From Nitrospira sp. (GTDB taxonomy: Bacteria; Nitrospirota; Nitrospiria; Nitrospirales; Nitrospiraceae), in the NCBI GenBank assembly GCA_016873495.1, contig VGXC01000008.1:1-64000 (forward strand): a stretch of 64,000 nucleotides of DNA, in the 5' to 3' direction. Position numbers and translations under genes: made by a program. The notes beneath the pieces were generated by a model. It had not been told where the DNA came from, made no database searches, and was given only the letters and a program-made list of their open reading frames with translations. The stretch's first letter is position 1. Every line of letters begins with the position of its first letter. Of this stretch, positions 2 to 17,193 are shown one piece after another.

Positions 2-688
2 AAATTTATCCTTGTTGAGATGGAGGATTACGCTGATACGCTTACTGCGGAACGGGTGCGCCGGGTGATCCGGGGTTACAAATTTGAGGGCACGAAAAAG
101 GAGGAGCTGCTGCGCGAACCGCTGAATTGGCGCAAGCTGGAAAAAGCAGACGAACTCATACAGAAAGTTGCTAGCGTTGAAAGATTCGAGGGCAGCAACT
201 TCGATAAGGTCACAAAGACAATCGAGGATGGTGAAATTGTCGTCACTGGCGAAAAGAATATTACCGAAAAGGTCGAAGGACTCGGCGGCAGTTTTACGTT
301 TGCGACACTTGGCTCTGAGATGTCGCTCGACGAACTGTTGGCTGATGGCTTGCCCACTTTCGAGGCGCTGGCGAAATATGTCTTCTTCACGGCCACGGGC
401 CGAACATTGAGCGAGTTGCCGACGCAGAAAGCCGCCGCGCTGGGTTTCATCGGCGAAACAGACCTCTACCGCGTTCACCTGCACTACAAAACCGACAAGC
501 AGTGGCTGCAAAGCAACGACGCTGCCCTGACGGAGAAGCTGTTGGATGAGATGATTATAGCCAACACAGAGAAGAAGAAGTTGCTGGTCTTCGCCGCCGC
601 CAAGTTTTTAAGCCAACGTGAGTTGTCGAAGAAGGGCGTGGAGTTCTGCCAATTGCCTTATGCGATCCATCGCATCCTCGGAGATTGA
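2..688 (+). CDS. mod: Type III R-M DNA methyltransferase (Mod), C-terminal part
   Basis: The reading frame is already open at base 2 (KFILVEMEDY...), so only the C-terminal ~228 residues are in the window. The catalytic motifs (FxGxG, DPPY) lie upstream and cannot be checked. The call rests on the FILVEMEDYA stretch, which resembles the end of the Mod methylase core, on the following helical tail, and on the adjacent res gene, since Mod and Res subunits are normally encoded together. Mod recognises and methylates adenine in a short asymmetric DNA site and also directs Res. An ATG lies at base 20 but is internal. The stop is 6 nt before the next start, so the two genes are probably co-transcribed. 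Confidence 0.72.
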   Translation, partial: KFILVEMEDYADTLTAERVRRVIRGYKFEGTKKEELLREPLNWRKLEKADELIQKVASVERFEGSNFDKVTKTIEDGEIVVTGEKNITEKVEGLGGSFTFATLGSEMSLDELLADGLPTFEALAKYVFFTATGRTLSELPTQKAAALGFIGETDLYRVHLHYKTDKQWLQSNDAALTEKLLDEMIIANTEKKKLLVFAAAKFLSQRELSKKGVEFCQLPYAIHRILGD

Positions 689-694
689 TCTGTC

Positions 695-3331
695 TTGCAA
701 CTGAAGGATTACCAGACCGACGTATTGGAGAGCCTGAGCCGCTACCTGCGTGCGCTCAACGCAAAACGCGAGGAGGCCGAGGAAATTTTTGAATTTCAGC
801 GCAGCAAAGGACGCGAAGCCAAGCTTGCCGATTACTGCCGCGAGACGTGGGATGCGCTCCATGGCGAAAAGGCGTTACCGTTAATAAAGGACAATGGCGG
901 CAACTTTGTCGCGCCTGCCTATGTTGTGCGTAAAGATGGTCTGGATCGGCCGGTGCCGAACATCTGCCTGAAGGTCCCCACGGGTGGCGGGAAAACATTG
1001 CTAGGAACGATTGCCGTCGAGCGGATCAACACGGAGTATTTCCAAAAGCAGACAGGCTTGGTGCTGTGGATCGTACCCTCGGATGCCATCTACTCGCAGA
1101 CATGGAAGGCCTTCGCCAACCGCGAGCATTCTTACCGGCAAATGCTGGAGCGGGCATCGGGCGGTCGCGTCCGACTGCTGGAGAAGGGCGATAGTTTCAC
1201 GAAGCAAGATGTTGAGCAGCAACTCTGCGTGATGTTGATGATGCTCCAGGCGGGAGCCGTGCGGAAGGAGTCGAAGGAAGCACGGAAGATGTTCCAGGAT
1301 AGTGGCCGGTATCCCAGCTTCTTCCCGGACGTGGACGACACCGTTGGGAACGCGGAGCTGCTCCGGCAAGTGCCGAACCTGGATGTGAATGATTTTTCCG
1401 ACGAGGGGTTTCGCGTCGGCGGCCTGACCGTGAAACAGAGCCTCGGCAATGTGCTGCGGCTGGTGCGTCCGCTGGTGGTGATTGACGAGGGGCACAAGGC
1501 GTATTCCAATACCGCATTGGAAACCATTGCAGGATACAATCCACGATTTCTTCTCGAACTCTCGGCTACGCCGAATAGCGGCAAGGAATACATCAGCAAC
1601 GTACTTGTGAACGTGACTGGTACGGCATTGAAGAGCGAGCACATGATTAAGCTGCCGATTAATCTCATCAATGAAAGCCGCGCGGACTGGAAGCACACCT
1701 TATCGGTGGCCAAGGACAAACTCGACGAATTACGGAAGGATGCCCGTAAGGTCCAGAACAACGAGGGTCGTTACATTCGCCCAATTCTGCTGATCCGTGT
1801 CGAACGAACTGGGAAAGACCAGCGGGACAAGGGGGCGACCCATGCGGAAGACATACGCGAATATCTTGTCGAGAAGTTGGGCGCGCAACCGGAGCAGATC
1901 AAGGTGAAGTCGGCGGAATTGGACGAGTTGGACAAGATAGACCTGCTGTCGGACTTGTGTCCAGTCCGCTATATCATCACGAAGGATGCTTTGCGCGAGG
2001 GGTGGGATTGTCCGTTTGCCTATGTTCTTGCGGTGCTGTCAAAGACGACGGCGCAGACGGCGCTCACTCAAATGATCGGTCGGGTATTGCGACAGCCGGA
2101 AGCTCGACTTACCGGCGCGCCGTCGCTGAACGAGTGTTACGTGTTCACGTTCGATCAAGAGGTGCAGGCGGCGGTGGACAGTGTGAGCCGTGGACTCGAA
2201 GAGGAGGGCATGGGTGACCTCGCGGCGAGCGTCAGGGCTGCCGGCAGAGGGGCTACAGCAGGCTCGAAACGAGAAGTACTCCGCCGTCGCAAGGAATTTG
2301 AAGGTCTAAAGATATTTCTTCCGCGAGTACTCTCACGACACTATGACACGAGTGACTGGCGTCAGTTCGACTATGACCGCGATTTACTGAGTCGTCTTAA
2401 TTGGAGTCGGATCAGTTATGCCAATCGGGCAACCTTCACACCGGATGAGCAAGAGGCCGTCGAACGGACGCTCGTGCGTGTCAGCGTGGAGGACTTGGGG
2501 AATGTCGATGACGACGAACTCCCGCAGCGGAAAACATTCGAAGAAGAGGTTGAGCCAGAATTGGACTTTCCCGCCTTGGTGCGTCTGCTTCTAGACGTGA
2601 TCCCGAACCCATGGCAAGGGGCACGGATTCTCAATGAGACGCTCGTCGAGCTCCGCAAACGAGGCATTGCCGAGGAGCGCATCTTCACCAACCGACTGTT
2701 TTTGGTAAAGGCGATACGTGAAGATCTGAAGAAGCAAGTGCATGATGCAGGTGAGATCGAGTTTCGGCGGATGCTTCAAGACGGCGAACTGCGGTTTCAT
2801 CTTGAGTCTTCCAATGATCCCAAGCTGAATTGGGAACTTGCCGAGACGCTGGAGCTGGACGTTACGGATGATGACAAGGTTCTGCTCCGCAAGAATGGTG
2901 AACCGTTAGCCAAGCCCCTTTTTGAGCGCGTGTACCAAAAGCAGGTCAACGGCTTGGAAAAAGACGTAGCCTGGTATCTCGATGGGGACAAAGCGGTCCG
3001 CTGGTGGCATCGAATCGCCGTTTATCAAGACTGGCATCTCCAAGGTTGGCAACGGAGTCGTGTGTATCCCGACTTCCTCGCCTGTTTGCAGGACGTGGGT
3101 GATGGCAAACTGCGATTTACGGTGCTCGAAACGAAAGGTCTTCACCTGAAGGGCAATGATGATACTACCTACAAGGCAAAACTGTTCGAGTTGTTTACAC
3201 AACACTCACAAAACGCGGTGCCTGTTGGCGAGCTAAAGCTCGGCGTAAAGCAGCAAATGCGGTTTGAGTTATTGCTTGAAGACAAGTGGCGCGAAACCCT
3301 CATGCAAGCCTCTGCCTTGCATGATTCATGA
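695..3331 (+). CDS. res: Type III restriction enzyme Res subunit (DEAD-like helicase plus nuclease)
   Basis: This 878-aa protein has the architecture of a type III Res subunit. It has a superfamily 2 ATPase with Walker A PTGGGKT at residues 95-101, motif II DEGH at 264-267 and motif III LSATPN. The second RecA domain ends in an IGRVLRQP motif VI. The C terminus has a PD-(D/E)xK nuclease signature: YPD with Asp793, then Glu812-Thr-Lys814. Res uses ATP-driven communication between two head-to-head sites and cuts foreign DNA. The start is a TTG; the MQLKDYQ N terminus is typical of the family and no better ATG exists. No frameshift is visible, so the subunit looks intact. Confidence 0.88.
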   Translation: MQLKDYQTDVLESLSRYLRALNAKREEAEEIFEFQRSKGREAKLADYCRETWDALHGEKALPLIKDNGGNFVAPAYVVRKDGLDRPVPNICLKVPTGGGKTLLGTIAVERINTEYFQKQTGLVLWIVPSDAIYSQTWKAFANREHSYRQMLERASGGRVRLLEKGDSFTKQDVEQQLCVMLMMLQAGAVRKESKEARKMFQDSGRYPSFFPDVDDTVGNAELLRQVPNLDVNDFSDEGFRVGGLTVKQSLGNVLRLVRPLVVIDEGHKAYSNTALETIAGYNPRFLLELSATPNSGKEYISNVLVNVTGTALKSEHMIKLPINLINESRADWKHTLSVAKDKLDELRKDARKVQNNEGRYIRPILLIRVERTGKDQRDKGATHAEDIREYLVEKLGAQPEQIKVKSAELDELDKIDLLSDLCPVRYIITKDALREGWDCPFAYVLAVLSKTTAQTALTQMIGRVLRQPEARLTGAPSLNECYVFTFDQEVQAAVDSVSRGLEEEGMGDLAASVRAAGRGATAGSKREVLRRRKEFEGLKIFLPRVLSRHYDTSDWRQFDYDRDLLSRLNWSRISYANRATFTPDEQEAVERTLVRVSVEDLGNVDDDELPQRKTFEEEVEPELDFPALVRLLLDVIPNPWQGARILNETLVELRKRGIAEERIFTNRLFLVKAIREDLKKQVHDAGEIEFRRMLQDGELRFHLESSNDPKLNWELAETLELDVTDDDKVLLRKNGEPLAKPLFERVYQKQVNGLEKDVAWYLDGDKAVRWWHRIAVYQDWHLQGWQRSRVYPDFLACLQDVGDGKLRFTVLETKGLHLKGNDDTTYKAKLFELFTQHSQNAVPVGELKLGVKQQMRFELLLEDKWRETLMQASALHDS

Positions 3332-5458: not shown

Positions 5459-6724
5459 ATGACCGTCCCAGACCTGCACTCTCTGCAAACCAGGCTCGCC
5501 GCACACCTCGATTGGTGGGGGTTGCGGCATTGCGAGTCCGACCGGGCCTACTTCGAGTGGCAGCAGAAGGCCTTGTCGCCGGACCAGCTGGCCTCGCTCC
5601 ATCAGGCAGTGGAGGCAAAACAGTCCCACCCCCAGCGAGCCGATCTGGAAACGGCTTTTTACGATTTGTCGGCCGATCCGACCATCCTGCCCGTCCTTTA
5701 CAGCCAACGGTACGAACTGTATCAAACCCTCGGCCCGCTGATCGCCGCTCTCTTGGCCGCCGAAGGGCCGGCGCGGGGCACGGTCCTGGATTTTGGCTGC
5801 GGGGTCGGGGTGCTGACGACCTTCTACGCCAAGGTCTTTTCGAATCTGATGGTCGTGGGGCTCGATCGGTCCGGCGCCTCGGTCAAGGCCGCGCAGGAGC
5901 GGGCCCAGGCCTTGGGGCTCACGAACATACGATTTGAATCCCTGGATATCGAGCGAACACCGATTCCCGGCCCCTTCGATATGATCCTCTCGGTCCATGC
6001 CCTCGTACAAGCCGAGCGGGAACTTGGGCTGCCGAGCCGGGATTGGACGACGTTCGAACGGCCTCAGGAGGCCGCCGCCCAACAGGCCTTTGAACAGCGC
6101 ACCGGATTGGGTCCCAGGCTCGACCGGCTCTGTGGTCTCCTGGATCAGGAGGGGCGGCTGATCGCGTTTGAGAAGACCCGCGAACTGGCGAGGCGGATTC
6201 CCTTCCAGCGCGCTCTTGCCGCCCGCGGCCTGATCCTGACCAAACCTCCGCTGCCGTTGCGGTATCGCGTTGTCGAAGAAGTCTCGGACGACGGACCTCT
6301 CTATGTGGCAGGCCGGAGCGCGGCGCCGAGCAAGGTCCAACCCGGACACGAAGCCGAGCCCTGGGATGAAACCCCGGAAGAGCGGGGAGAAGCCATTTCA
6401 TCCGTTGCCTCGCTGCTCGCGAGGGTGCGGACCGCAGCTACCGAGGCTCTATCCGCCTCTCGCGACCCCCTCTATGAGAATCACGCGGCTTCGGCCGAGT
6501 CGGTCTGGCGGAATCTGCCGAACCGCCTGGTCCGCCGCGAACAGACCTTTGCGGCCCCCACCGGCGCTCAGGTGCACGTCGAACTCGGCGAGTCAGACGG
6601 GCTCCGCTATCTCTACCAAGCCACAACCCTTGACCACCGCCAATTGGTCCTGGTCGAGCCGGCTCGGGCGGCCCTGCTGGAGGCCTACTATGCAGAACTG
6701 CTGCCCAAGCAGCCGGGCAAGTAG
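5459..6724 (+). CDS. Class I SAM-dependent methyltransferase, unknown substrate
   Basis: The 421-aa protein has a Rossmann methyltransferase core in its middle. Motif I is VLDFGCGVGVLT near residue 112, an acidic VVGLDRSG follows about 20 residues later, and a LDIERTP segment fits motif III. About 100 residues precede the core (LDWWGLRHCESDRAYFEW) and about 200 follow it, neither of which I can assign. The gene sits between a ProA-like gene and a pair of B12-type radical SAM genes on the same strand, so it may belong to that group. The substrate cannot be read from the sequence. Confidence 0.7.
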   Translation: MTVPDLHSLQTRLAAHLDWWGLRHCESDRAYFEWQQKALSPDQLASLHQAVEAKQSHPQRADLETAFYDLSADPTILPVLYSQRYELYQTLGPLIAALLAAEGPARGTVLDFGCGVGVLTTFYAKVFSNLMVVGLDRSGASVKAAQERAQALGLTNIRFESLDIERTPIPGPFDMILSVHALVQAERELGLPSRDWTTFERPQEAAAQQAFEQRTGLGPRLDRLCGLLDQEGRLIAFEKTRELARRIPFQRALAARGLILTKPPLPLRYRVVEEVSDDGPLYVAGRSAAPSKVQPGHEAEPWDETPEERGEAISSVASLLARVRTAATEALSASRDPLYENHAASAESVWRNLPNRLVRREQTFAAPTGAQVHVELGESDGLRYLYQATTLDHRQLVLVEPARAALLEAYYAELLPKQPGK

Positions 6725-6832
6725 CCCTGCCAGTCATTTACCCCATGCAAGTCCCTGAAAATCAAAGGCCTTGACCAGGAGCGCATGCACCCCCTAGAAT
6801 GACCCAACATTCCGGGCTGGGGACTTTCTCCC

Positions 6833-8740
6833 ATGCGCGTGCAATACTCCAAGGGGGCGCAAGCCTCCGAGGAATTGATACAACTCCATCGGCGCACCTC
6901 CGAGGAGGCAGCCGGCGGGCGAAAGGTCAACGTGATGTTGATCTTTCCGCCTGATTGGTATCCCTCCGAACCCTACCTCAGCTTGCCCACGCTCACTGCC
7001 GTGCTCCGTGCCGCCGGCCATGCCGTGGTCCAGAAAGACGTCAATCTGGAAATGTATGACTGGTACTTCAGCGAGGACTTCCTCAAGAAGGTGCTGCGGC
7101 GGGTGCCTCAGCAATTGGACCGGCTCAGGAAGCTCGCCAAGAAGCGCGATCTGGAAGAATGGGAACGGGACCTGCAACTGGCCCTCTGCGACCTCACGCG
7201 CGAACGGATCGCCGAGCTGGCCCGCAAGGCCGAAGAGGCCAAGCGCATTGTCCGCAGCCAGGATTTCTACGACATCGACAAGCTCGAATGGGCCGTCAAT
7301 ACGTTCCGCGAGGTCACCGCGGTCATCTCACTCGTCTATGCGCCGGCGCGCATCTGCATGCCGCCGATGGAGACCGATCTCTCCTACAAGGTCTATGTCT
7401 CGTCCGAGATCATGGACGCCGTGCAGGATCAGCAGGTCAACGTCTACCGCGACGTGTTCGAGCATCTGGTCAAACCGGCGATCGAGGCCGAGAAACCGGA
7501 TGTCATCGGCATTTCGATCGTCCTCCAGCAACAACTCTTCTCCACCATGACCTTCTGCGCGCTGATCAAACAGCATTTCCCCAACATCCATGTCACGATC
7601 GGCGGCAACACAGTGACGCGCCTCCGCGACGTGCTGCCCCAGTCGCCCCTCTTCGCCTACTTCGATAGCGCCGTGTTTTATGAAGGAGAAACGGCCTTCC
7701 TGCAATTGGTCGAAGCGGTGGGGGCGGGACGCAGCTTGGACGGAGTCCCCAATGTGCTCTACCGCGATGCGTCCGGGGTGCATACCTCGACGCTGACCTA
7801 CTCGGAAGATATGGAGGCGTTGCCGCCGCCGGATTTCGATGGCCTGCCGCTGGACAAGTATTTTCTGCCGGACAAGATTCTGCCCTATTTGGCGACGCGC
7901 GGCTGCTATTGGGGCCGCTGCGAGTTCTGCGACCACGGCGAGGGCTACACGGCCGGCTACCGGACGAAGAAGATTCAGCAAATCCTAGACGAGGTGCAGC
8001 GCTTGCGCGACAAGCACCGGGTCCGGCATTTCCACTTTACCGACGAATCCTATCCGCCGGCGCTGTTTCGCAAGCTCTGTCGCGGGCTGATCGAGCGCCG
8101 CATGGACATCGCCTGGACGACCCACATGCGGTACGAGAAGAGTCTGCTCGACGAACCGGTGTGGGAGGATGCCAAGCGCGCGGGCCTCAAGTACCTGCAC
8201 GTGGGCTACGAGTCCGGCAACGAACGCGTGCTCAAGCTGATGGACAAGGCGACGACGACGGACGTGATCACGCGCAGCTTGCAGCTATCGGCCAAGGCGG
8301 GCATCTGGAATCACGCGATGGGCTTTTTCGGATTTCCCGGCGAGACCCGCGAGGAGGCGCTGGACTCCGTCCGGTTCCTGGCCAAGAACAAGGACATCGT
8401 CCATTCGGTCGGCTTCGGCACCTTCGATCTCAGCCGCCACACGCCGGTGGCCAAGAATCCCGAGAAGTGGGGCGTGACACCCTACATCAACCCCGAGTGG
8501 GACCTGGCGCTGGACTATTATTACACGGTCAAGCAGGGGCTCAGCATCGAGGAAGCGGAGCAAGTCTTCGAGGAGTTCGAACGGAACCATCCGTCCAACT
8601 GGGACCTGCGGATTTTTATTCGGGAATACATTTTCCTCTACGTCGCCCGGTTCGGCTTGCGCGCATTGCCGGCGCTCCAGTTCGACGCGGCGAAGGCCGG
8701 CTCCGGAGCGCCCCCGTCGCTGGAAGCGAAAGTCTGTTGA
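6833..8740 (+). CDS. B12-binding-domain radical SAM protein, tandem copy 1
   Basis: The 635-aa protein has an N-terminal flavodoxin-like half of the B12-binding radical SAM type (VNVMLIFPPDWYPSEPYLSLP near residue 34, then IGISIVLQQQ and VTIGGN). A radical SAM barrel starts near 350. The 4Fe-4S cysteines are Cys358, Cys363 and Cys366 (RGCYWGRCEFC), a C-x4-C-x2-C spacing instead of C-x3-C-x2-C. No DxHxxG cobalamin ligand motif is evident, so cobalamin binding is uncertain or base-off. Such enzymes catalyse methylations and rearrangements on unactivated carbon; the substrate is unknown. A long insert with charged helices (residues ~85-170) is shared with the next gene, which is a close paralogue. 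Confidence 0.8.
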   Translation: MRVQYSKGAQASEELIQLHRRTSEEAAGGRKVNVMLIFPPDWYPSEPYLSLPTLTAVLRAAGHAVVQKDVNLEMYDWYFSEDFLKKVLRRVPQQLDRLRKLAKKRDLEEWERDLQLALCDLTRERIAELARKAEEAKRIVRSQDFYDIDKLEWAVNTFREVTAVISLVYAPARICMPPMETDLSYKVYVSSEIMDAVQDQQVNVYRDVFEHLVKPAIEAEKPDVIGISIVLQQQLFSTMTFCALIKQHFPNIHVTIGGNTVTRLRDVLPQSPLFAYFDSAVFYEGETAFLQLVEAVGAGRSLDGVPNVLYRDASGVHTSTLTYSEDMEALPPPDFDGLPLDKYFLPDKILPYLATRGCYWGRCEFCDHGEGYTAGYRTKKIQQILDEVQRLRDKHRVRHFHFTDESYPPALFRKLCRGLIERRMDIAWTTHMRYEKSLLDEPVWEDAKRAGLKYLHVGYESGNERVLKLMDKATTTDVITRSLQLSAKAGIWNHAMGFFGFPGETREEALDSVRFLAKNKDIVHSVGFGTFDLSRHTPVAKNPEKWGVTPYINPEWDLALDYYYTVKQGLSIEEAEQVFEEFERNHPSNWDLRIFIREYIFLYVARFGLRALPALQFDAAKAGSGAPPSLEAKVC

Positions 8741-8742
8741 GC

Positions 8743-10683
8743 ATGAGCACGTTGCTGCACATTGACGGCAAAGCGCCCAACGCTCCTCTGGCGATTAGCA
8801 CGCCCACCCGCAAGCTCAAGACCATGCTCCTGTTCCCGCCGGAATGGGTTCCGACGGCGCCCTACCTGGCCTTACCCAGCCTCACCGCGGTGCTGCGCGA
8901 ACAGGGACATGAGGTCGTGCAGAAGGACGTCAACATCGAGATGTACGACCACTTCTTCAGCGACTCCTTCCTGATCTGGGTCAAGACCCGCATGGCTTCG
9001 CAGCTTCGCGCTCTGGAGGACAAGGCCAAACACGCCTGGCTGACGGAAGCGGAAACCCAGCACAAAGCTTGCTTGACCGCCAAGGTCGATCTGGACGTGT
9101 TCGAGCTCCTCGAACAGGCCCAGCGGGCCAAGGCCATTGTGCGCGGGGAGGACTTCTACCAGGCGGACAAGCTGGAATGGGCCCTGAATACCTTCCGCCA
9201 GGTGATGCAGTACATCTCGGCCGCCTACTATCCGGCGTCGATCGTCTTCTATCCGATGGAGAGCAACCTCGGCTATCGGCCCGGCGTCTCGCGCGAGGTC
9301 CTCGCCTGTCTGGATGACGAGCAGGTGAATGTGTACCGGGATATCTGCCGGCAACTCGTGCTCCCGGCGGTGAGCAAGGAAGCGCCGGACGTGGTGGGGG
9401 TTTCGATCGGCACGCAGATGCAGCTCCTGGCTGGACTAACCTTCTGCAAGATGGTCAAAGAAGCCTTCCCAACCGTTCATGTGACGGTCGGGGGCAATGT
9501 GATCACCCGCCTGCAGGAAGAGCTGCCCCGACAGGAACGGTTTTTCTCCGAGGTCTTCGATTCGGCCATCATGTATGAAGGGGAACATGCGCTCCTGTGG
9601 CTGCTCGAGGCCTTAGCCGGGGGACGGGCCATCGAGTCCGTGCCGAACCTCATGTATCGGGACAAGGCCGGCATCCACGTCAACAAGGAAATCTATACGG
9701 AGAAGACCGCGGCCTTGCCGCTCCCGGACTTCGAAGGGCTGCCCCTCGACCGGTATTTCTCGCCGGTTCGCATCCTGCCGTACCTTGCCACCAGAGGCTG
9801 CTACTGGGGCCGTTGCACGTTCTGCGATCACGGGCAGGGCTATTTCGACCAGTACCGAGGTCTGCCGGCGCAGGACGTCGTCCGCCAGGTCAAGGCACTG
9901 AAGGAGAAATACCGGGCCGAGCATTTCCTCTTTGCCGACGAGTCCTATCCGCCGGCCCTCTTCAAAAAAGTCTCCCAACTGTTGGTCGAGCAAAACGTCG
10001 GGATCAAGTGGACCACGTTAATCCGCTTCGAGGAAACGCTGAACGCACAGGACATGGAGCTGGCCGCCCGTGCCGGCTGCTGTACCCTCTACTACGGCAT
10101 GGAGTCGGCGAACGAGCGGGTACTGGGCCTGATGGACAAGCACGTCAAGAAGTCCATCATCGCGCGCAACCTCAAGGACGCGGCCCAGGTCGGCATCTGG
10201 AACCACGTGATGGCGTTTTACGGCTTTCCGGGAGAGACCCGCGACGAGGCCTTGGAGACCAGGCAGTTCATTTTGGACAACCAACCGCAGATCCATTCGG
10301 TGGAGCTGTTCTACTTCGTCGCCTACCGGCACACGCCGATGGTGCGCAAACCGGAACAGTTCGGCATCACGATTCACAAGCAGGACGACTATGACCTGCC
10401 GCTGGATTACTATTACACGCTGAACGAGCCGGTCGGGCTGACCTGTCTGGATGCCATGCAGCTCTGCGAGGAGTTCTATCAGAACGACTTCGAGCCCTGG
10501 GCCGTGCGGGTGAATGCCCGCGAGCATGTCTTTCTCTACATTTCCAAGTACGGCACGAATCGCTTGCCGCAGATCTATGCCAAGACGAAGAGCGGCGATG
10601 CGGTCTCCGGTCTCGTCACCTGGCCGGTTGCGCGCGGGGAGGAAGGCGACATGGCCCGCGTGGTCAGCCACGCGGTGTCGTGA
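8743..10683 (+). CDS. B12-binding-domain radical SAM protein, tandem copy 2
   Basis: The 646-aa product starts at an ATG 2 nt after the upstream stop, so translation is probably coupled. The open frame extends much further upstream, but that part lies inside the previous gene. It is similar to copy 1 throughout: KTMLLFPPEWVPTAPYLALP, VVQKDVNIEMYDHFF, and RGCYWGRCTFC with Cys353, Cys358 and Cys361. The same C-x4-C-x2-C spacing is retained. The C-terminal extension differs from copy 1 after the barrel. The pair most likely arose by gene duplication and may form a heterodimer or act in successive steps. Confidence 0.8.
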   Translation: MSTLLHIDGKAPNAPLAISTPTRKLKTMLLFPPEWVPTAPYLALPSLTAVLREQGHEVVQKDVNIEMYDHFFSDSFLIWVKTRMASQLRALEDKAKHAWLTEAETQHKACLTAKVDLDVFELLEQAQRAKAIVRGEDFYQADKLEWALNTFRQVMQYISAAYYPASIVFYPMESNLGYRPGVSREVLACLDDEQVNVYRDICRQLVLPAVSKEAPDVVGVSIGTQMQLLAGLTFCKMVKEAFPTVHVTVGGNVITRLQEELPRQERFFSEVFDSAIMYEGEHALLWLLEALAGGRAIESVPNLMYRDKAGIHVNKEIYTEKTAALPLPDFEGLPLDRYFSPVRILPYLATRGCYWGRCTFCDHGQGYFDQYRGLPAQDVVRQVKALKEKYRAEHFLFADESYPPALFKKVSQLLVEQNVGIKWTTLIRFEETLNAQDMELAARAGCCTLYYGMESANERVLGLMDKHVKKSIIARNLKDAAQVGIWNHVMAFYGFPGETRDEALETRQFILDNQPQIHSVELFYFVAYRHTPMVRKPEQFGITIHKQDDYDLPLDYYYTLNEPVGLTCLDAMQLCEEFYQNDFEPWAVRVNAREHVFLYISKYGTNRLPQIYAKTKSGDAVSGLVTWPVARGEEGDMARVVSHAVS

Positions 10684-10693
10684 AGCACGGACA

Positions 10694-10772
10694 CAATGTT
10701 CAGTGTTGAATGGTCAATGTTCAATGCGGAAGAACGTTTTTGAAATTGAGCATTGAAAATTGAACATTAATC
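10694..10772. repeat. AT-rich imperfect inverted repeat
   Basis: AATGTTCAGTGTTGAATG (near 10695) is an imperfect reverse complement of CATTGAAAATTGAACATT (near 10752). The segment is made of repeated TTGAA/TTCAA units and is far more AT-rich than its surroundings. It separates the plus-strand radical SAM gene from the minus-strand J-domain gene and could act as a bidirectional terminator. Confidence 0.4.
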
Positions 10773-10799
10773 ATTCCCGTGTTGCAGAGTGCGGCACCG

Positions 10800-11045
10800 T
10801 CACGATTGTTCGGGTGACGTCAGCCAGACAGAGAGGATCTGAAACGCCGATTCGATTTCTTTGGTCATGGCCTCGCCTTTCTTATACATCTGCATGTACT
10901 TGCGCGGATTGTTCGTGAGGTTCGCATAGCGGTGCGGATGCCAGGTCGCCAGCAGTTCCTTCTTTCTCGCCTCCAGCTGCTCGCGTGTCGGTTTTTCCGT
11001 CAGCCCGAACGTGTGCAACGCCCGGATAATGTCTTCTTGCGCCAC
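10800..11045 (-). CDS. Small J-domain-like protein with HPH instead of HPD
   Basis: The 81-aa protein consists of one J-domain-like fold: helix I (DIIRALHTFGL), helix II (REQLEARKKELLATW), a loop, and helix III ending ESAFQIL. The invariant HPD tripeptide that stimulates DnaK ATPase reads HPH (residues 36-38). It therefore probably does not act as a DnaK co-chaperone and may serve as a protein-interaction module. It is divergent from the third radical SAM gene, with 78 nt between the two starts, so the two could share a control region. Confidence 0.6.
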   Translation of the reverse strand: MAQEDIIRALHTFGLTEKPTREQLEARKKELLATWHPHRYANLTNNPRKYMQMYKKGEAMTKEIESAFQILSVWLTSPEQS

Positions 11046-11123
11046 GTCGGCTCCAGGTTACGCCATGTGCGAGCGGGAGTCTGACAAACCCATTCCACCT
11101 CTGTCAATGAGGACCCACCGTCG

Positions 11124-12362
11124 ATGAGCCGTCCGCTCCCCATCCTCCAGCCGACCAAAATCCTTGCGGGGAAGGATTACCGCGAGGTGCTCAACCAGGA
11201 GATGGATGCGGGGAAAATCCCCATCAGCCTGGGGAAAAACTGTCCGGTCAAGTGCGAGTTCTGCTACGAGACGGACCATTCCTATCGGGAAACCCTGGAG
11301 CCCCCCAAGACCACCCAGGAAGACTGGGCCTATATCCTCGATTACCTCAACAAGAAGCCGACTGATCCCACGCAGTTTTGGTGTCTGGGCGGAAACGAAT
11401 ACATGGAGTGGACCGACCTCTTTCTGCACCCCAAGGCCATGGAGTGGGTTGAAGACTTTCTCAAGTACACGGACAAGAACCTGACCTTCTTTACGGTCGG
11501 CTTTGTCCACGTCCCCAAGGTCCATCAACTGGCCGCCCAATATCCGGGACGGATCAATTTCGAGCTGTCGGTGATCACGCTCGGGGACCATCGGCAGCGG
11601 CTCATGCCCCATGCGCCGGCGGTCAAACACTTGCTCAAAGTCCTGGACGGCCCGGCCGTGTCGTCGGCCAATTTCTATAGCTTCGGCGACCAGACGATGT
11701 CGAAGGATGCGGCCATGATTTCCGAGGTCAATCAGAAGTGCGTGCTCTGGATGGGCTGCCTGACCCCGGTCCGCGGGATCAAGCCGGAGACGGCGGACCT
11801 GATGCGACAGGGACGGACAGCGTTGCCCCAGGAAGCCCGGCGCATCTACGACCTCGCCTTGCCGAATATGACGACCATTCACACGGAAGCCTACATTACC
11901 GCTTTCCTGAACCGTCGCCGAATCGTTAACGAGTTCGACAAACTGGAGTTGGACAAGAAAGACACGGTCATCGTCGCCGGCAGCGTCTACAAGATCCTGA
12001 ACATGTACCGGAAGCGGCGGGCCCGGTATCTCTATGTGCCCAACACGACCTTGGGCGGGGATTCGGACTGTACGGTGCTGCTCACCTTCGACGACATCGC
12101 CCGCCGGATCACCAAGGAGAAGCTCGTGCACATCCCCAAATGCGTCATGCAGTCGGGACGGGGACCCTATCGGGACATTGCCGGCGTCTCGCTGGACGAC
12201 TTCATCCGAAAAACCGGCGTCAAGGTGAGGGTCTTGCACAAGATCGACACCAACTTCGCCAACCGGCAACTGTACCGGAACGGGTTCCTCAAGAACTACG
12301 TGGAAGACTACCTCCGCCATCCCTTGGCGCAACCGTACGAAGCCCTGTCGGTGCCGGCCTGA
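11124..12362 (+). CDS. Radical SAM protein (C-x3-C-x2-C), unknown function
   Basis: The 412-aa protein has a canonical radical SAM motif CPVKCEFC (Cys40, Cys44, Cys47) in an ISLGKNCPVKCEFCYE context. A glycine-rich FWCLGGNEY segment follows, then a domain with FELSVITLGDHRQRLMP and a C-terminal region (YLYVPNTTLGGDSDCTVLL) that recalls DUF512-type proteins. No SPASM-type cysteine cluster is evident. The gene shares the neighbourhood with two B12-type radical SAM genes and a methyltransferase, and with a PhzF-family gene 59 nt downstream. The reaction cannot be deduced. Confidence 0.7.
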   Translation: MSRPLPILQPTKILAGKDYREVLNQEMDAGKIPISLGKNCPVKCEFCYETDHSYRETLEPPKTTQEDWAYILDYLNKKPTDPTQFWCLGGNEYMEWTDLFLHPKAMEWVEDFLKYTDKNLTFFTVGFVHVPKVHQLAAQYPGRINFELSVITLGDHRQRLMPHAPAVKHLLKVLDGPAVSSANFYSFGDQTMSKDAAMISEVNQKCVLWMGCLTPVRGIKPETADLMRQGRTALPQEARRIYDLALPNMTTIHTEAYITAFLNRRRIVNEFDKLELDKKDTVIVAGSVYKILNMYRKRRARYLYVPNTTLGGDSDCTVLLTFDDIARRITKEKLVHIPKCVMQSGRGPYRDIAGVSLDDFIRKTGVKVRVLHKIDTNFANRQLYRNGFLKNYVEDYLRHPLAQPYEALSVPA

Positions 12363-12421
12363 CCCCGTGCCGTGACGGCGTTGACAAGCGTGGCCGCCTG
12401 ACCTAGAGTACGACTTGACCT

Positions 12422-13354
12422 ATGAGTCCGGATCGCCGCAGCCTCCAGTTCTATCAAGCCGACGTGTTTACCGATTTGCCCTTCGGCGGCAACCCGGTCG
12501 CGGTCGTACCGGACGGCAACGGACTCAGCGACCGTGAACTCCAGCAAATCGCGCGGGAGATGAACCTGTCCGAGACCGTCTTCGTCCTCCCGCCCGCCGA
12601 TCCCACCGCCGCCATCAAGCTGCGCATTTTTACGCCTTCTCAGGAGATTCCCTTTGCCGGACATCCGGTGCTGGGAACTTTCTTCGTGCTCGCCACCTTG
12701 GGACGGCTCTCCGTCAAGGGCCCGGTGACGCGCCTGCTCTACGAATGCAACATCGGCCTCTTTCCCGTCGAGGTCCATGTCCGCGACGAGAGCGTGGCCA
12801 GAATCGTAATGTCCCAGCCGAAGCCGCAGTTCCTCGGACCGATCGAGCCGGGCCAGGACCTGTTCGAAGTGGCTCAGGCGCTCGGCCTGACCAAGAGGCA
12901 GATCGACGGCACAAATCTGCCGGTGGAAGTGGTGTCAACCGGCTTGCCGGTCATGATCGTGCCGGTTAGAACCCTCACGGCGGTCCGTTCGATCAAGCCC
13001 GACGCCGGCGCGATCACCGAACTCTGCGCACGGTATGGCGCCAATGGCATTATGGTATTCACCACGATGACCGTGGAGGAGGTGTCCACGGTCCACACGC
13101 GCATGTTTGCGCCGCCGATCGGCATTCCCGAGGACCCGGCCACCGGCAGCGCCAGCGGCGCCCTTGGGGCCTATCTCGTGCAAAATGGAGTGGTGGACGT
13201 GGGACCGACCAGCACGATCATTGCCGAACAGGGTTATGAGCTGGACCGCCCCTCGCGCATCATGATTCAGGTGGAATCGGACGACGATGCGATTCAGGAG
13301 GTGAAAGTCGGCGGGCAAGTAGTCATGGTCCTGCAAGGCACTCTCACGTTTTAG
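12422..13354 (+). CDS. PhzF-family isomerase/epimerase
   Basis: The 310-aa protein has the two-lobed PhzF/diaminopimelate-epimerase-like fold. The N-terminal signature is FYQADVFTDLPFGGNPVAVV, with LSETVFVLPP (catalytic-glutamate region in PhzF) and FAGHPVLGTFFVLA. The second lobe has PEDPATGSASGALGAYLV. PhzF itself isomerises trans-2,3-dihydro-3-hydroxyanthranilate, but most family members have unknown substrates. No phenazine genes are visible here. It may act with the preceding radical SAM protein, which is 59 nt upstream on the same strand. Confidence 0.85.
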   Translation: MSPDRRSLQFYQADVFTDLPFGGNPVAVVPDGNGLSDRELQQIAREMNLSETVFVLPPADPTAAIKLRIFTPSQEIPFAGHPVLGTFFVLATLGRLSVKGPVTRLLYECNIGLFPVEVHVRDESVARIVMSQPKPQFLGPIEPGQDLFEVAQALGLTKRQIDGTNLPVEVVSTGLPVMIVPVRTLTAVRSIKPDAGAITELCARYGANGIMVFTTMTVEEVSTVHTRMFAPPIGIPEDPATGSASGALGAYLVQNGVVDVGPTSTIIAEQGYELDRPSRIMIQVESDDDAIQEVKVGGQVVMVLQGTLTF

Positions 13355-14148: not shown

Positions 14149-14901
14149 TTATTCCCTCGGCTTGACTACCAACGCGGTCCGATTCGCCGCCGCCGCCGCC
14201 CGTTCGTCCGGTAACGGATGGGGCGGTCCATGGCAAGTAATGCACGCGATGCGGTCGGCGGACAGCTCCCCCAAGAGCGCCTGGTGGCTCTTGACGCGCT
14301 CCCACTTATTCGTCCCGCGATGGCATGACAGGCAGTTGGAATTGGAGTAGCTTCCCACATACTGAATGGGATCCGGATAGGTATCGGTTACATAGTGCAG
14401 CCAGTGCCGAAATCCGTCCCGTTTCCCCGCCAGCGTGCCGGTCACGCCGTATGTCACGTGACAGGCATAGCACTGGTCTTTCGCAATCCAGTTATTGCGA
14501 TAATGCCGGGCGGCCAATGTGGGACTGCTCTGATTTTTCATATCATTGACGAATGGGTCCATCACATGGCAGGAGGCGCAGGCCTGCACCATTTTGGTCC
14601 CTTCCATCACCGTCGTCGTCGTGCTCCAGGTCGCGGTCACGGGCAACAGAAATACCCCCACCAGAAGCAGCCGATGGTAGGTGCCGTGCCGGATGCGCTT
14701 ACGATACACGTATTGCACAAAGATCAGCAGAAGAATCCCGGCCACCGATGCCGCGATCCCGAGGCCTCGGAAGACATCCACGTCCGACACTGCGTCGTGC
14801 GCTTCGTACGCCCACGCTGTCGTCCCTGTTAGCCATATTCCCGCAAGGAACGCCACGAGCAGGGATAGTGGCCGCCCATAGGATCTGTCATGATGCATCA
14901 T
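14149..14901 (-). CDS. napC: Tetrahaem c-type cytochrome, NapC/NirT family
   Basis: The 250-aa protein has four haem c motifs: CASCH (108-112), CYACH (144-148), CLSCH (190-194) and CITCH (220-224). The N-terminal ~95 residues hold an exported hydrophobic segment (11-31) and two more membrane helices (about 48-65 and 77-93). That is more than the single anchor of classical NapC/NrfH. Such cytochromes oxidise membrane quinol and pass electrons to a periplasmic reductase. The natural acceptor here is the NapA-type enzyme encoded just upstream, 15 nt away in the operon. Confidence 0.82.
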   Translation of the reverse strand: MMHHDRSYGRPLSLLVAFLAGIWLTGTTAWAYEAHDAVSDVDVFRGLGIAASVAGILLLIFVQYVYRKRIRHGTYHRLLLVGVFLLPVTATWSTTTTVMEGTKMVQACASCHVMDPFVNDMKNQSSPTLAARHYRNNWIAKDQCYACHVTYGVTGTLAGKRDGFRHWLHYVTDTYPDPIQYVGSYSNSNCLSCHRGTNKWERVKSHQALLGELSADRIACITCHGPPHPLPDERAAAAANRTALVVKPRE

Positions 14902-14916
14902 GATCGGCTTCTCCCG

Positions 14917-17193
14917 TTATGCTGATTTCCGCCGGACCGCCACCACACAGCGCTTGAATGCCGGTTCCTTGGAAAAAGGATCGTATACGTCATGCGTAAC
15001 CTGGTTGATCAGATGTCGGCAAGAATGCATTGTGGCAAACACCATCCCGGGCCGAACAATCTCGGTGATGCGGGCCCGCAACTCGACTTCCCCGCGGCGA
15101 CTTTTCACGATGACGGGATCGCCGTCCTTGACCTCCGCCTGATAGGCATCGTAGGGGTGGATCTCCAGATAGTCGGGCTGGATTCCTTTCAACGTGGGGG
15201 CCGAGCCGGTAATGGTCATCGTATGCCAATGTTCCAGAATGCGTCCGGTATTGAGGATCAGCGGAAACTCATCCGCATAGGGATCCACCGGTTCTTCCTG
15301 CCGATCCAGCCAGATTGTCGCCCGTCGGTCGTGTTTTCCGTAAAAGTCGAATCGGCCGGAGCCTGTGGCCATCGGGTCCTGTCCAGGAAGATAGCGCCGC
15401 TTGGTGCCCGGATGCGACTCCGTCGGGCAAGGCCATTGGAGCCCGCGCTCCTTCTGCAGTCGCTCGTACGTGATACCCTCGAAGTTGTACGCCGAATGAG
15501 ACGATATCTTGCGCCACTCGTCCCAGACATCCTTCGGCGTTCTGGCCGAGATCAAGTCGCCGTGGCCGAGGCGGTCCGCTAACTCCACGAGAATCGCCAA
15601 GTCGCTCTTGACCTCGCCCGGAGGACTCACCAGTTTGGGGTAGAGATGGTACCGTCGATCCCCGTTCCCTGTGACCCCTTCCTTTTCCACCCAGAGGGCG
15701 GCAGGCAGCACCACATCGGCGAATTTCGTCGTTTCCGTCGGGTAAAAGGCATCGACCACGACTAGAAACGCCTTTTCCATTCCCTGCCGGTAGGCCGTGA
15801 CATTGGGGAGCGTCTGCCCGGGGTTCGTGCACATCACCAGACAGCACTTCACGTCGCCTCGCCCCAGCGCTTCAAATAACTGAACGGTGTGATAGCCCGG
15901 CTTTGGGCTGATCCGGCCGCGCGGAACCTTCCACAAATCTTCCATCTCTTCGCGGTGCTTCGGATTGGCGATCAGGCGCCCGTTCGGCAGGGCATGCGAA
16001 AGGGTGCCGACGTCGCGCACGCCGCCGCACGCGTTCGGTTGCCCCGAGATGGAAAACGGCGTGGCGCCCGGGCGACCGAAATGTCCCGTCAAAAGGTGCA
16101 TCGCGCTCACCAGCCGGTTGGAGTGGGTGGCCTGCACCTGCTGATTCAAGCCCATCGTCCACAACGACATGGTGGCTTTTGAAGTGGCGAACAGGAACGC
16201 GGCTTCGCGAATATCCCGCGGAGTGATACCGCAGGTTTTGGCCGCCGCCTCCGGGGTGTATTTTGCGATATGCCGTTTAAACTCCTCGAACGTCCGGCTC
16301 TCCTCACCGTCCTTGAACGTCAGGTAGTTCTCCACCATATCCCGGTCGATGAAATTGTGTTGCAGGAACACATAGATCATCGCGTTATAGAGGGACACGT
16401 CGGTGCCGGGATGGATCGGAAGGTGCAGGTCCGCGTGCCTCGCCGTGAAAGTCTTGCGCGGGTCGACGACGATGATCTTCGTGCCGGGATGGCTCCGCTT
16501 CCGGTCCCGCACACGCTCCCAGAGAATCGGATGGCACTCCAGGGTGTTTGAGCCCGTGATGAAGAAACAATCGGCATAGTCCATGTCCTCATAACACCCG
16601 GGCGGTTCGTCTTTACCGAAGGTGGCGGTATAGCCGGTCGTTGCAGAGGCCATGCACATCCGCGCATTGCTCTCGACGTTGTTCGTGCCGATGCCGGCCT
16701 TGAACAGCTTGTTTGCGGTATAGCTTTCCTGCGTGTAGAGTTGACCGCTGCCGTAGAAAGCGACGCTGGCCGGTCCGTGCGTCTCGATCGATTCCCGGAA
16801 GCGCTGTGCGATCAGGGTCATGGCTTCATCCCAGCTTGCCCGCTGCAGTTCTCCGTCTTTCCTGATCATCGGGTACAGCGCGCGATCTTCGGAGTAGAGG
16901 ATATCGCGAGTCGCCAAACCCTTGATGCAGAGGCGGCCGCGGTTGTGTGCCTCGTCGTCTCCCTTGACGTCCACAACCTTGTTGTTGGTAACGCCGATCA
17001 TGACGCCGCAGCCGGTCCCACAGAACCGGCAGACGCCTTTGTGCCAGCCGTCAACGGGGATTACCGACTGGCGTTCCCATAAGCTGTTGCAGCCGGTCAG
17101 GGGAGCCAGGCACGCCAGCCCAGCCGAGACTCCCAAGAGCCTCCCCAGTTCCCGGCGTGTCAGTCCATTTGGCGCGTCTGGTTTGTGCGACAC
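14917..17193 (-). CDS. napA: NapA-type periplasmic nitrate reductase, possible Tat lipoprotein
   Basis: The 758-aa molybdopterin oxidoreductase has a 4Fe-4S site at Cys55, Cys58, Cys62 and Cys89. A likely Mo-ligand Cys180 lies in NARMCMASA, followed by the NapA-typical FGKDEPPGCYEDMDYAD. NapA reduces nitrate to nitrite in the periplasm. The N terminus has a twin-arginine motif (TRRELGR, residues 12-18) and a hydrophobic stretch ending in LTGC (Cys35), which fits a lipobox. The enzyme may thus be lipid-anchored. No napB, napD, napG or napH gene is nearby; only NapC accompanies it. It is somewhat shorter than typical NapA (~830 aa). Another oxyanion substrate cannot be excluded. Confidence 0.8.
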   Translation of the reverse strand: MSHKPDAPNGLTRRELGRLLGVSAGLACLAPLTGCNSLWERQSVIPVDGWHKGVCRFCGTGCGVMIGVTNNKVVDVKGDDEAHNRGRLCIKGLATRDILYSEDRALYPMIRKDGELQRASWDEAMTLIAQRFRESIETHGPASVAFYGSGQLYTQESYTANKLFKAGIGTNNVESNARMCMASATTGYTATFGKDEPPGCYEDMDYADCFFITGSNTLECHPILWERVRDRKRSHPGTKIIVVDPRKTFTARHADLHLPIHPGTDVSLYNAMIYVFLQHNFIDRDMVENYLTFKDGEESRTFEEFKRHIAKYTPEAAAKTCGITPRDIREAAFLFATSKATMSLWTMGLNQQVQATHSNRLVSAMHLLTGHFGRPGATPFSISGQPNACGGVRDVGTLSHALPNGRLIANPKHREEMEDLWKVPRGRISPKPGYHTVQLFEALGRGDVKCCLVMCTNPGQTLPNVTAYRQGMEKAFLVVVDAFYPTETTKFADVVLPAALWVEKEGVTGNGDRRYHLYPKLVSPPGEVKSDLAILVELADRLGHGDLISARTPKDVWDEWRKISSHSAYNFEGITYERLQKERGLQWPCPTESHPGTKRRYLPGQDPMATGSGRFDFYGKHDRRATIWLDRQEEPVDPYADEFPLILNTGRILEHWHTMTITGSAPTLKGIQPDYLEIHPYDAYQAEVKDGDPVIVKSRRGEVELRARITEIVRPGMVFATMHSCRHLINQVTHDVYDPFSKEPAFKRCVVAVRRKSA

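Follow-up and report, generated by a model that had tools for sequence, protein, structure and literature searches.

What do two adjacent genes for B12-binding radical SAM proteins do in a Nitrospirales genome, and which of the genes around them share their pathway? The pair lies in the window, the whole stretch of 64,000 nucleotides analysed here. The all-bacteria scan matched 148 loci; among the best 80, nearly all labelled Nitrospirota, the nearest named relatives were Nitrospirales genomes, among them Nitrospira defluvii with 78% and N. moscoviensis with 77% over RS1. The original prediction joined six genes of the window in a dedicated pathway; its observations proved largely correct and its interpretation is partly supported. 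The decisive context lies outside the window, namely a third paralogue in the nitrite oxidoreductase (NXR) cluster and, in one family, the nearness of the pair to nxrA, nxrB and the gene of a predicted CmlA-like diiron oxygenase.

The conserved core and its neighbours

All six open reading frames were confirmed within 8 kb of the window, with matching coordinates. The first encodes a class I methyltransferase (MT, 5459-6724, + strand) and is followed by RS1, a 635-aa B12-binding radical SAM protein with the motif CYWGRCEFC (6833-8740, +), and by its 646-aa paralogue RS2 (8743-10683, +), which starts after a gap of 2 nt from the RS1 stop codon. Convergent with RS2 is the gene for J, an 81-aa J-domain-like protein (10800-11045, - strand). 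The remaining two encode RS3, a 412-aa radical-SAM-like protein with CPVKCEFCY (11124-12362, +), and a PhzF-family protein (12422-13354, +). The predicted identities of MT and PhzF were upheld by Pfam, which placed them in Methyltransf_31 and PF02567 (236 bits), respectively.

Synteny was counted at 80 loci, using as denominators the loci with enough sequence. RS2 directly follows RS1 in 78/78 loci from three families, so the neighbourhood of the pair is conserved across genomes, and in 63 of 67 loci J comes next, encoded on the opposite strand. Because both arrangements hold across three families, the association of RS1, RS2 and J is more than chance, and these genes are the conserved core. 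J had been regarded as a break in the cluster; it is part of this core, although it is encoded on the other strand.

The other neighbours vary. MT precedes RS1 in 5 of 58 loci and in those five it goes with proA; it is a local passenger outside the conserved unit and was ruled out as a pathway member. Separate occurrence in relatives thus applies to MT, whereas RS1, RS2 and J stay together. RS3 is present at the pair in 25/56 loci and lies on a different contig from it in G060, a genome of family f2 (f1 to f4 denote Nitrospirales families); it is a patchy, dispensable accessory whose membership is weak. PhzF is a frequent neighbour, within 4.5 kb of the pair in 54 of 56 loci, but its tie to the core is uncertain: the downstream block of PhzF, ADH, CBS and MoaB is syntenic over a long range and also includes genes that seem unrelated, and at the f2 locus L135 neither PhzF nor RS3 adjoins the pair. 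A single six-gene pathway including MT, RS3 and PhzF, which their packing in the window and the closeness of PhzF to the pair would favour, is highly improbable against these counts. The proposed dedicated pathway therefore stands for RS1, RS2 and J, with their order-wide synteny and common distribution, and falls for MT, with RS3 dispensable and PhzF a mere common neighbour. We would redraw the unit to comprise RS1-RS2-J, next to which RS3 and PhzF vary, and also the third paralogue (RSN) and the protein MBL539, both encoded elsewhere in the genome.

Protein families and predicted folds

RS1 and RS2 both exceeded the Pfam cut-offs for the radical SAM domain (PF04055; 64.7 and 61.8 bits) and the B12-binding domain (PF02310; 41 and 35 bits) and are 50% identical, in line with their description as tandem paralogues of the B12 type. 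RSN (G000:C22:46466-48247; L129:8467-10248), with 32% identity to RS2, likewise passed the cut-offs for both domains. Three cysteines with CX4CX2C spacing (C358, C363 and C366), as well as Asp367 and His368, were aligned in 36/36 RS1, RS2 and RSN sequences. In the tree each of the three forms one clade and RS1 and RS2 are sisters, while RSN does not group exclusively with them against plasmid homologues. One of the latter, on the Rhizobium phaseoli plasmid pRphaR744c (L143:10001-12106), is a B12-radical SAM relative with 28.7% identity, aligned over RS1 residues 32-572, and adjoins genes for a protease and an ATP-binding protein. The Rhizobium and Sinorhizobium plasmid homologues were rejected as context evidence, having no common gene context, and served as an outgroup only.

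The AlphaFold model of RS1 (pLDDT 83) combines a B12 Rossmann domain and a radical SAM barrel. A helical insert modelled at about residues 70-198 of the B12 domain agrees with the insert originally placed at 85-170; since the alignment of the pRphaR744c relative contains it, this insert is not unique to Nitrospirales. The best PDB matches of the model were TsrM, OxsB, TokK, MgmA and CysS. Class B cobalamin-dependent radical SAM methyltransferases (TsrM, TokK, CysS and the PhpK-type P-methylases) resemble RS1 and RS2 in their domain order, B12-binding before radical SAM, their three-cysteine cluster motif and the predicted fold. They differ at 15-18% identity, with CX3CX2C in place of CX4CX2C, and their B12 domain does not contain the helical insert, which is about 130 residues long in RS1. 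MgmA (9ccb), the glutamine methylase of methyl-coenzyme M reductase, has a fold like that of RS1 (Foldseek E 1.5e-13) and offers a parallel as a radical SAM enzyme coupled to a key energy enzyme; its cluster motif and insert differ, and a protein substrate for RS1, RS2 and RSN is putative.

The pair matched no characterised NCBIfam family, and the best scores were far below every cut-off. RS1 and RS2 reached 130 and 137 bits against the PhpK P-methyltransferase family (TIGR04479, curated cut-off 600) and 134 and 113 bits against the RiPP maturation radical SAM C-methyltransferases (TIGR03975, curated cut-off 281.85). HpnJ, HpnR and BchE, of the hopanoid and tetrapyrrole B12-radical SAM families, were among the weaker matches. 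By domains and cluster motif, RS1, RS2 and RSN are members of the B12-binding radical SAM superfamily, with methylation as the predicted reaction. Enzymes of this type are not all methylases, as OxsB and BchE illustrate.

The small protein and the third radical SAM protein were assigned with more reserve. PF00226 (DnaJ) was matched by 7 of 14 J homologues (best E 1e-6), and the HPD tripeptide is kept in just 2 of 87. J accordingly appears to be a degenerate J domain, as had been proposed; for the copy in the window, which had no DnaJ match in Pfam, this assignment is weak. RS3 scored 17.3 bits for Radical_SAM, under the Pfam cut-off of 29.5, and CxxxCxxCY is invariant in its 15 homologues. Given this motif, a third radical SAM protein is likely despite the low score, though not proven. 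The AlphaFold model of RS3 was too poor for use (pLDDT 51), and a PDB search found no relative.

Distribution and links to nitrite oxidoreductase genes

We sampled 296 genomes of the phylum with RS2 as query (E <= 1e-80), a search that also catches RS1 and RSN. Matches were found in 99 of the 296 genomes, all in f1, f2 and f3, the three Nitrospirales families with NXR. RS1 or RS2 was present in 93 of these 99 but absent from all of the other Nitrospirota, about 197 genomes. The remaining six, all from f1 (G021, G272, G309, G315, G325 and G330), have RSN alone, and five of them also have no J; the absence of RS1 and RS2 may reflect assembly gaps or real loss. J (92/296 genomes), MBL539 (96/296) and RS3 (58/296) were likewise confined to f1-f3. 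Two loci labelled Nitrospinota (L075) and Nitrosospira (L059) carry the Nitrospirales module in Nitrospirales gene order, and are probably mislabelled metagenome bins.

Among 100 near relatives, family f4 is represented by four genomes; these are also Nitrospirales and had none of RS1, RS2, RSN, MBL539 or nxrB. TIGR03478 was tried as an NXR marker and gave no match above its cut-off in any relative, and the genome's own NxrB was used instead. With this query nxrB was detected in about two thirds of the 100 genomes, because multi-copy nxr genes assemble badly, as is also stated in PMC12342949. The same paper reports that, of the Nitrospirales families, UBA2166 alone has no NXR, and from the missing nxrB we infer that f4 is this family. 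We take f2 to be NS-4, the deepest family with NXR. NxrB-like proteins with 47-69% identity occur in other Nitrospirota, which do not have the RS1-RS2 pair. Within the phylum the distribution of the module matches that of NXR. Function and ancestry are confounded here, because the distribution is essentially that of one clade; evidence from gene order partly escapes this confounding.

RSN was found in the same gene order in 16/16 loci examined, from three families. Genes for Fd, TorD and NxrC precede RSN; it is followed by a 372-aa protein without Pfam match and, where the contig extends far enough, by TPR, TatA, NHL, a second NxrC-like protein, PDZ and two cytochromes c. In G053, nxrA and nxrB lie between NxrC and RSN, immediately before RSN. 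The N. moscoviensis cluster NITMOv2_3614-3631, called 'diagnostic for nitrite oxidation' in the main text of PMC12342949, has the same content as described there (NxrC, TorD, two pentaheme cytochromes c and a two-component system). Within this cluster nxrC_2 ranks with the most strongly expressed genes, and transcription of the TorD gene is also high, according to PMC6606698. The main texts of both papers leave a radical SAM protein unmentioned. RS1 and RS2 may be among the 140 diagnostic genes of PMC12342949, most of which that study left without a function.

Linkage of the pair itself to NXR genes was seen in f2, whose loci come from draft metagenome bins. One contig of G066 (locus L135) reads nxrB (-), nxrA (-), P521 (+), MBL539 (+), J (+), RS2 (-) and RS1 (-). 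In G060 (L134) the end of nxrB is 6.6 kb from RS1, and in G078 the same intervening genes, P433 and P320, follow nxrB on a contig that stops short of the position of RS1. P521, MBL539 and J are consecutive on one strand in G066, G060 and G076 (L135:5036-8586, L226 and L227). J is thus the end of an operon with MBL539 in f2, whereas the two genes are apart outside f2. P521 was seen only in f2 loci, and no Pfam or PDB match was found for it. RS1-RS2 is not near nxrAB in the Nitrospiraceae and UBA8639-like genomes. MBL539 of the Nitrospiraceae is encoded elsewhere, yet it is 3-13 kb from nxrB in G030, G025, G004 and G034. Genes for a glyoxalase-fold protein, a SUMF1-like protein and HemD (uroporphyrinogen-III synthase) precede MBL539 in most Nitrospiraceae (L217:6715-9492, G000:C39), and the HemD gene is perhaps a tetrapyrrole link.

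With a profile of 12 MBL539 members the E-value was 1.8e-12 for CmlA, a diiron monooxygenase in the synthesis of chloramphenicol, and 5.5e-10 for another diiron monooxygenase; hydrolases scored far worse. The HDHDDH motif (H266, H268, D270 and H271) and E337 are invariant in the 12 members. E337 is aligned with the Glu of the CmlA PFLGE motif, which we take to be the diiron ligand E377 and which differs in the variant entry 5kil. With CmlA as the top match and this Glu aligned, an oxygenase is likelier than a hydrolase, and a diiron site is predicted. CmlA and MBL539 have in common the metallo-beta-lactamase fold, HDHDDH and the aligned Glu; the alignment covers only residues 212-364, and no NRPS gene was found near MBL539. 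A PqqD-like segment suspected by eye in MBL539 was unsupported by Pfam on the 12 members.

Proposed role, alternatives and other genes of the window

We put the probability at about one half that RS1 and RS2, as cobalamin-dependent radical SAM enzymes, belong to a Nitrospirales pathway that specifically serves nitrite oxidation. From linkage and distribution we infer a role in the nitrite-oxidation apparatus for RS1, RS2, RSN and MBL539; the three radical SAM proteins probably produce or alter a component required for nitrite oxidation, and the chemistry is probably radical C-methylation plus hydroxylation. By analogy with established B12-radical SAM chemistry, each enzyme would cleave SAM with its reduced [4Fe-4S] cluster to give a 5'-deoxyadenosyl radical, which would abstract hydrogen from an unactivated carbon, and methylcobalamin would deliver the methyl group. 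RS1 and RS2 may act sequentially on one substrate or at two of its positions, and MBL539 may hydroxylate the same or a related substrate. J would dock or protect the substrate or the enzymes, rather than drive DnaK. As candidate substrates we rate two about equal: an amino-acid side chain, in NXR or a partner protein, and a small cofactor that serves NXR or its electron chain. Methyl-coenzyme M reductase is methylated by B12-radical SAM enzymes, and NXR-directed tailoring could be likened to this system; that NXR, or its cofactor or redox partner, bears methyl and hydroxyl groups from the three radical SAM enzymes and the CmlA-like oxygenase is a tentative proposal.

Several observations count against a role in nitrite oxidation. 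Ancestry alone could yield the one-clade distribution, six genomes have RSN only (assembly gaps may explain this), and outside f2 the pair is away from nxrAB. In addition, RSN does not group exclusively with RS1 and RS2, and methylation is not the reaction of every B12-radical SAM enzyme. On this side stands the rather unlikely alternative that the compound methylated by RS1 and RS2 is a lipid, a hopanoid or some other constituent of the envelope or of storage material, without bearing on nitrite oxidation, and that common descent produced the NXR-like distribution. It would account for HpnJ, HpnR and BchE among the weaker matches and for the separation of the pair from nxrAB in the Nitrospiraceae, but fits poorly with the fixed place of RSN in the NXR cluster, the linkage of RS1-RS2 to nxr genes in f2 and the absence of the module from f4 of the same order; no conserved lipid gene was found beside RS1-RS2 in 80 loci. 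The homology of MBL539 to CmlA, whose substrate is an amino acid bound to a carrier, and the best NCBIfam matches, to RiPP C-methyltransferases and PhpK, could instead point to a RiPP-type or secondary metabolite. RS1 and RS2 would then be C-methyltransferases for a ribosomal peptide or for an amino acid on a carrier, and MBL539 would beta-hydroxylate this substrate. We consider this quite improbable, as all scores are below the cut-offs, Pfam did not support a PqqD domain in MBL539, and pathways for secondary metabolites seldom extend to nearly all members of an order; in a screen of ORFs of at least 60 aa, the 80 loci had no NRPS gene near the pair and no conserved precursor-like ORF.

In soil, water and treatment plants, nitrite oxidation by Nitrospirales accounts for a large share of the nitrate, and to our knowledge the maturation of periplasmic NXR is poorly known. 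If the nitrite-oxidation reading is true, a key biogeochemical enzyme would have a hidden modification or cofactor, nitrite oxidisers would have a direct demand for B12, and any production of NXR in a foreign host would have a further condition to meet. RS1, RS2, J, RSN and MBL539 make a short testable gene list. No publication describing the RS1-RS2 module was found in open-access full text; as far as found, RS1-RS2-J with RSN and MBL539 is a set that has not been described before and is specific to nitrite oxidisers, within an enzyme superfamily that is itself known.

Three further features of the window were recorded. A 758-aa molybdopterin oxidoreductase and a NapC/NirT-type cytochrome c (14149-17193, - strand) form an insertion in the syntenic block that was also seen in L061 and L074 and is absent from the other loci examined. 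A MoaB/Mog-type molybdopterin-binding protein (PF00994; 17344-18066, -) is encoded 3' of PhzF/CBS in most loci, and since NXR is a molybdenum enzyme this gene is a possible further molybdenum-cofactor link. At the start of the window lies the gene for a type III restriction/helicase-like protein with a 222-aa neighbour (20-3331, +); it is perhaps a local acquisition, as the sole relative seen, at 33%, was near one locus (L003).
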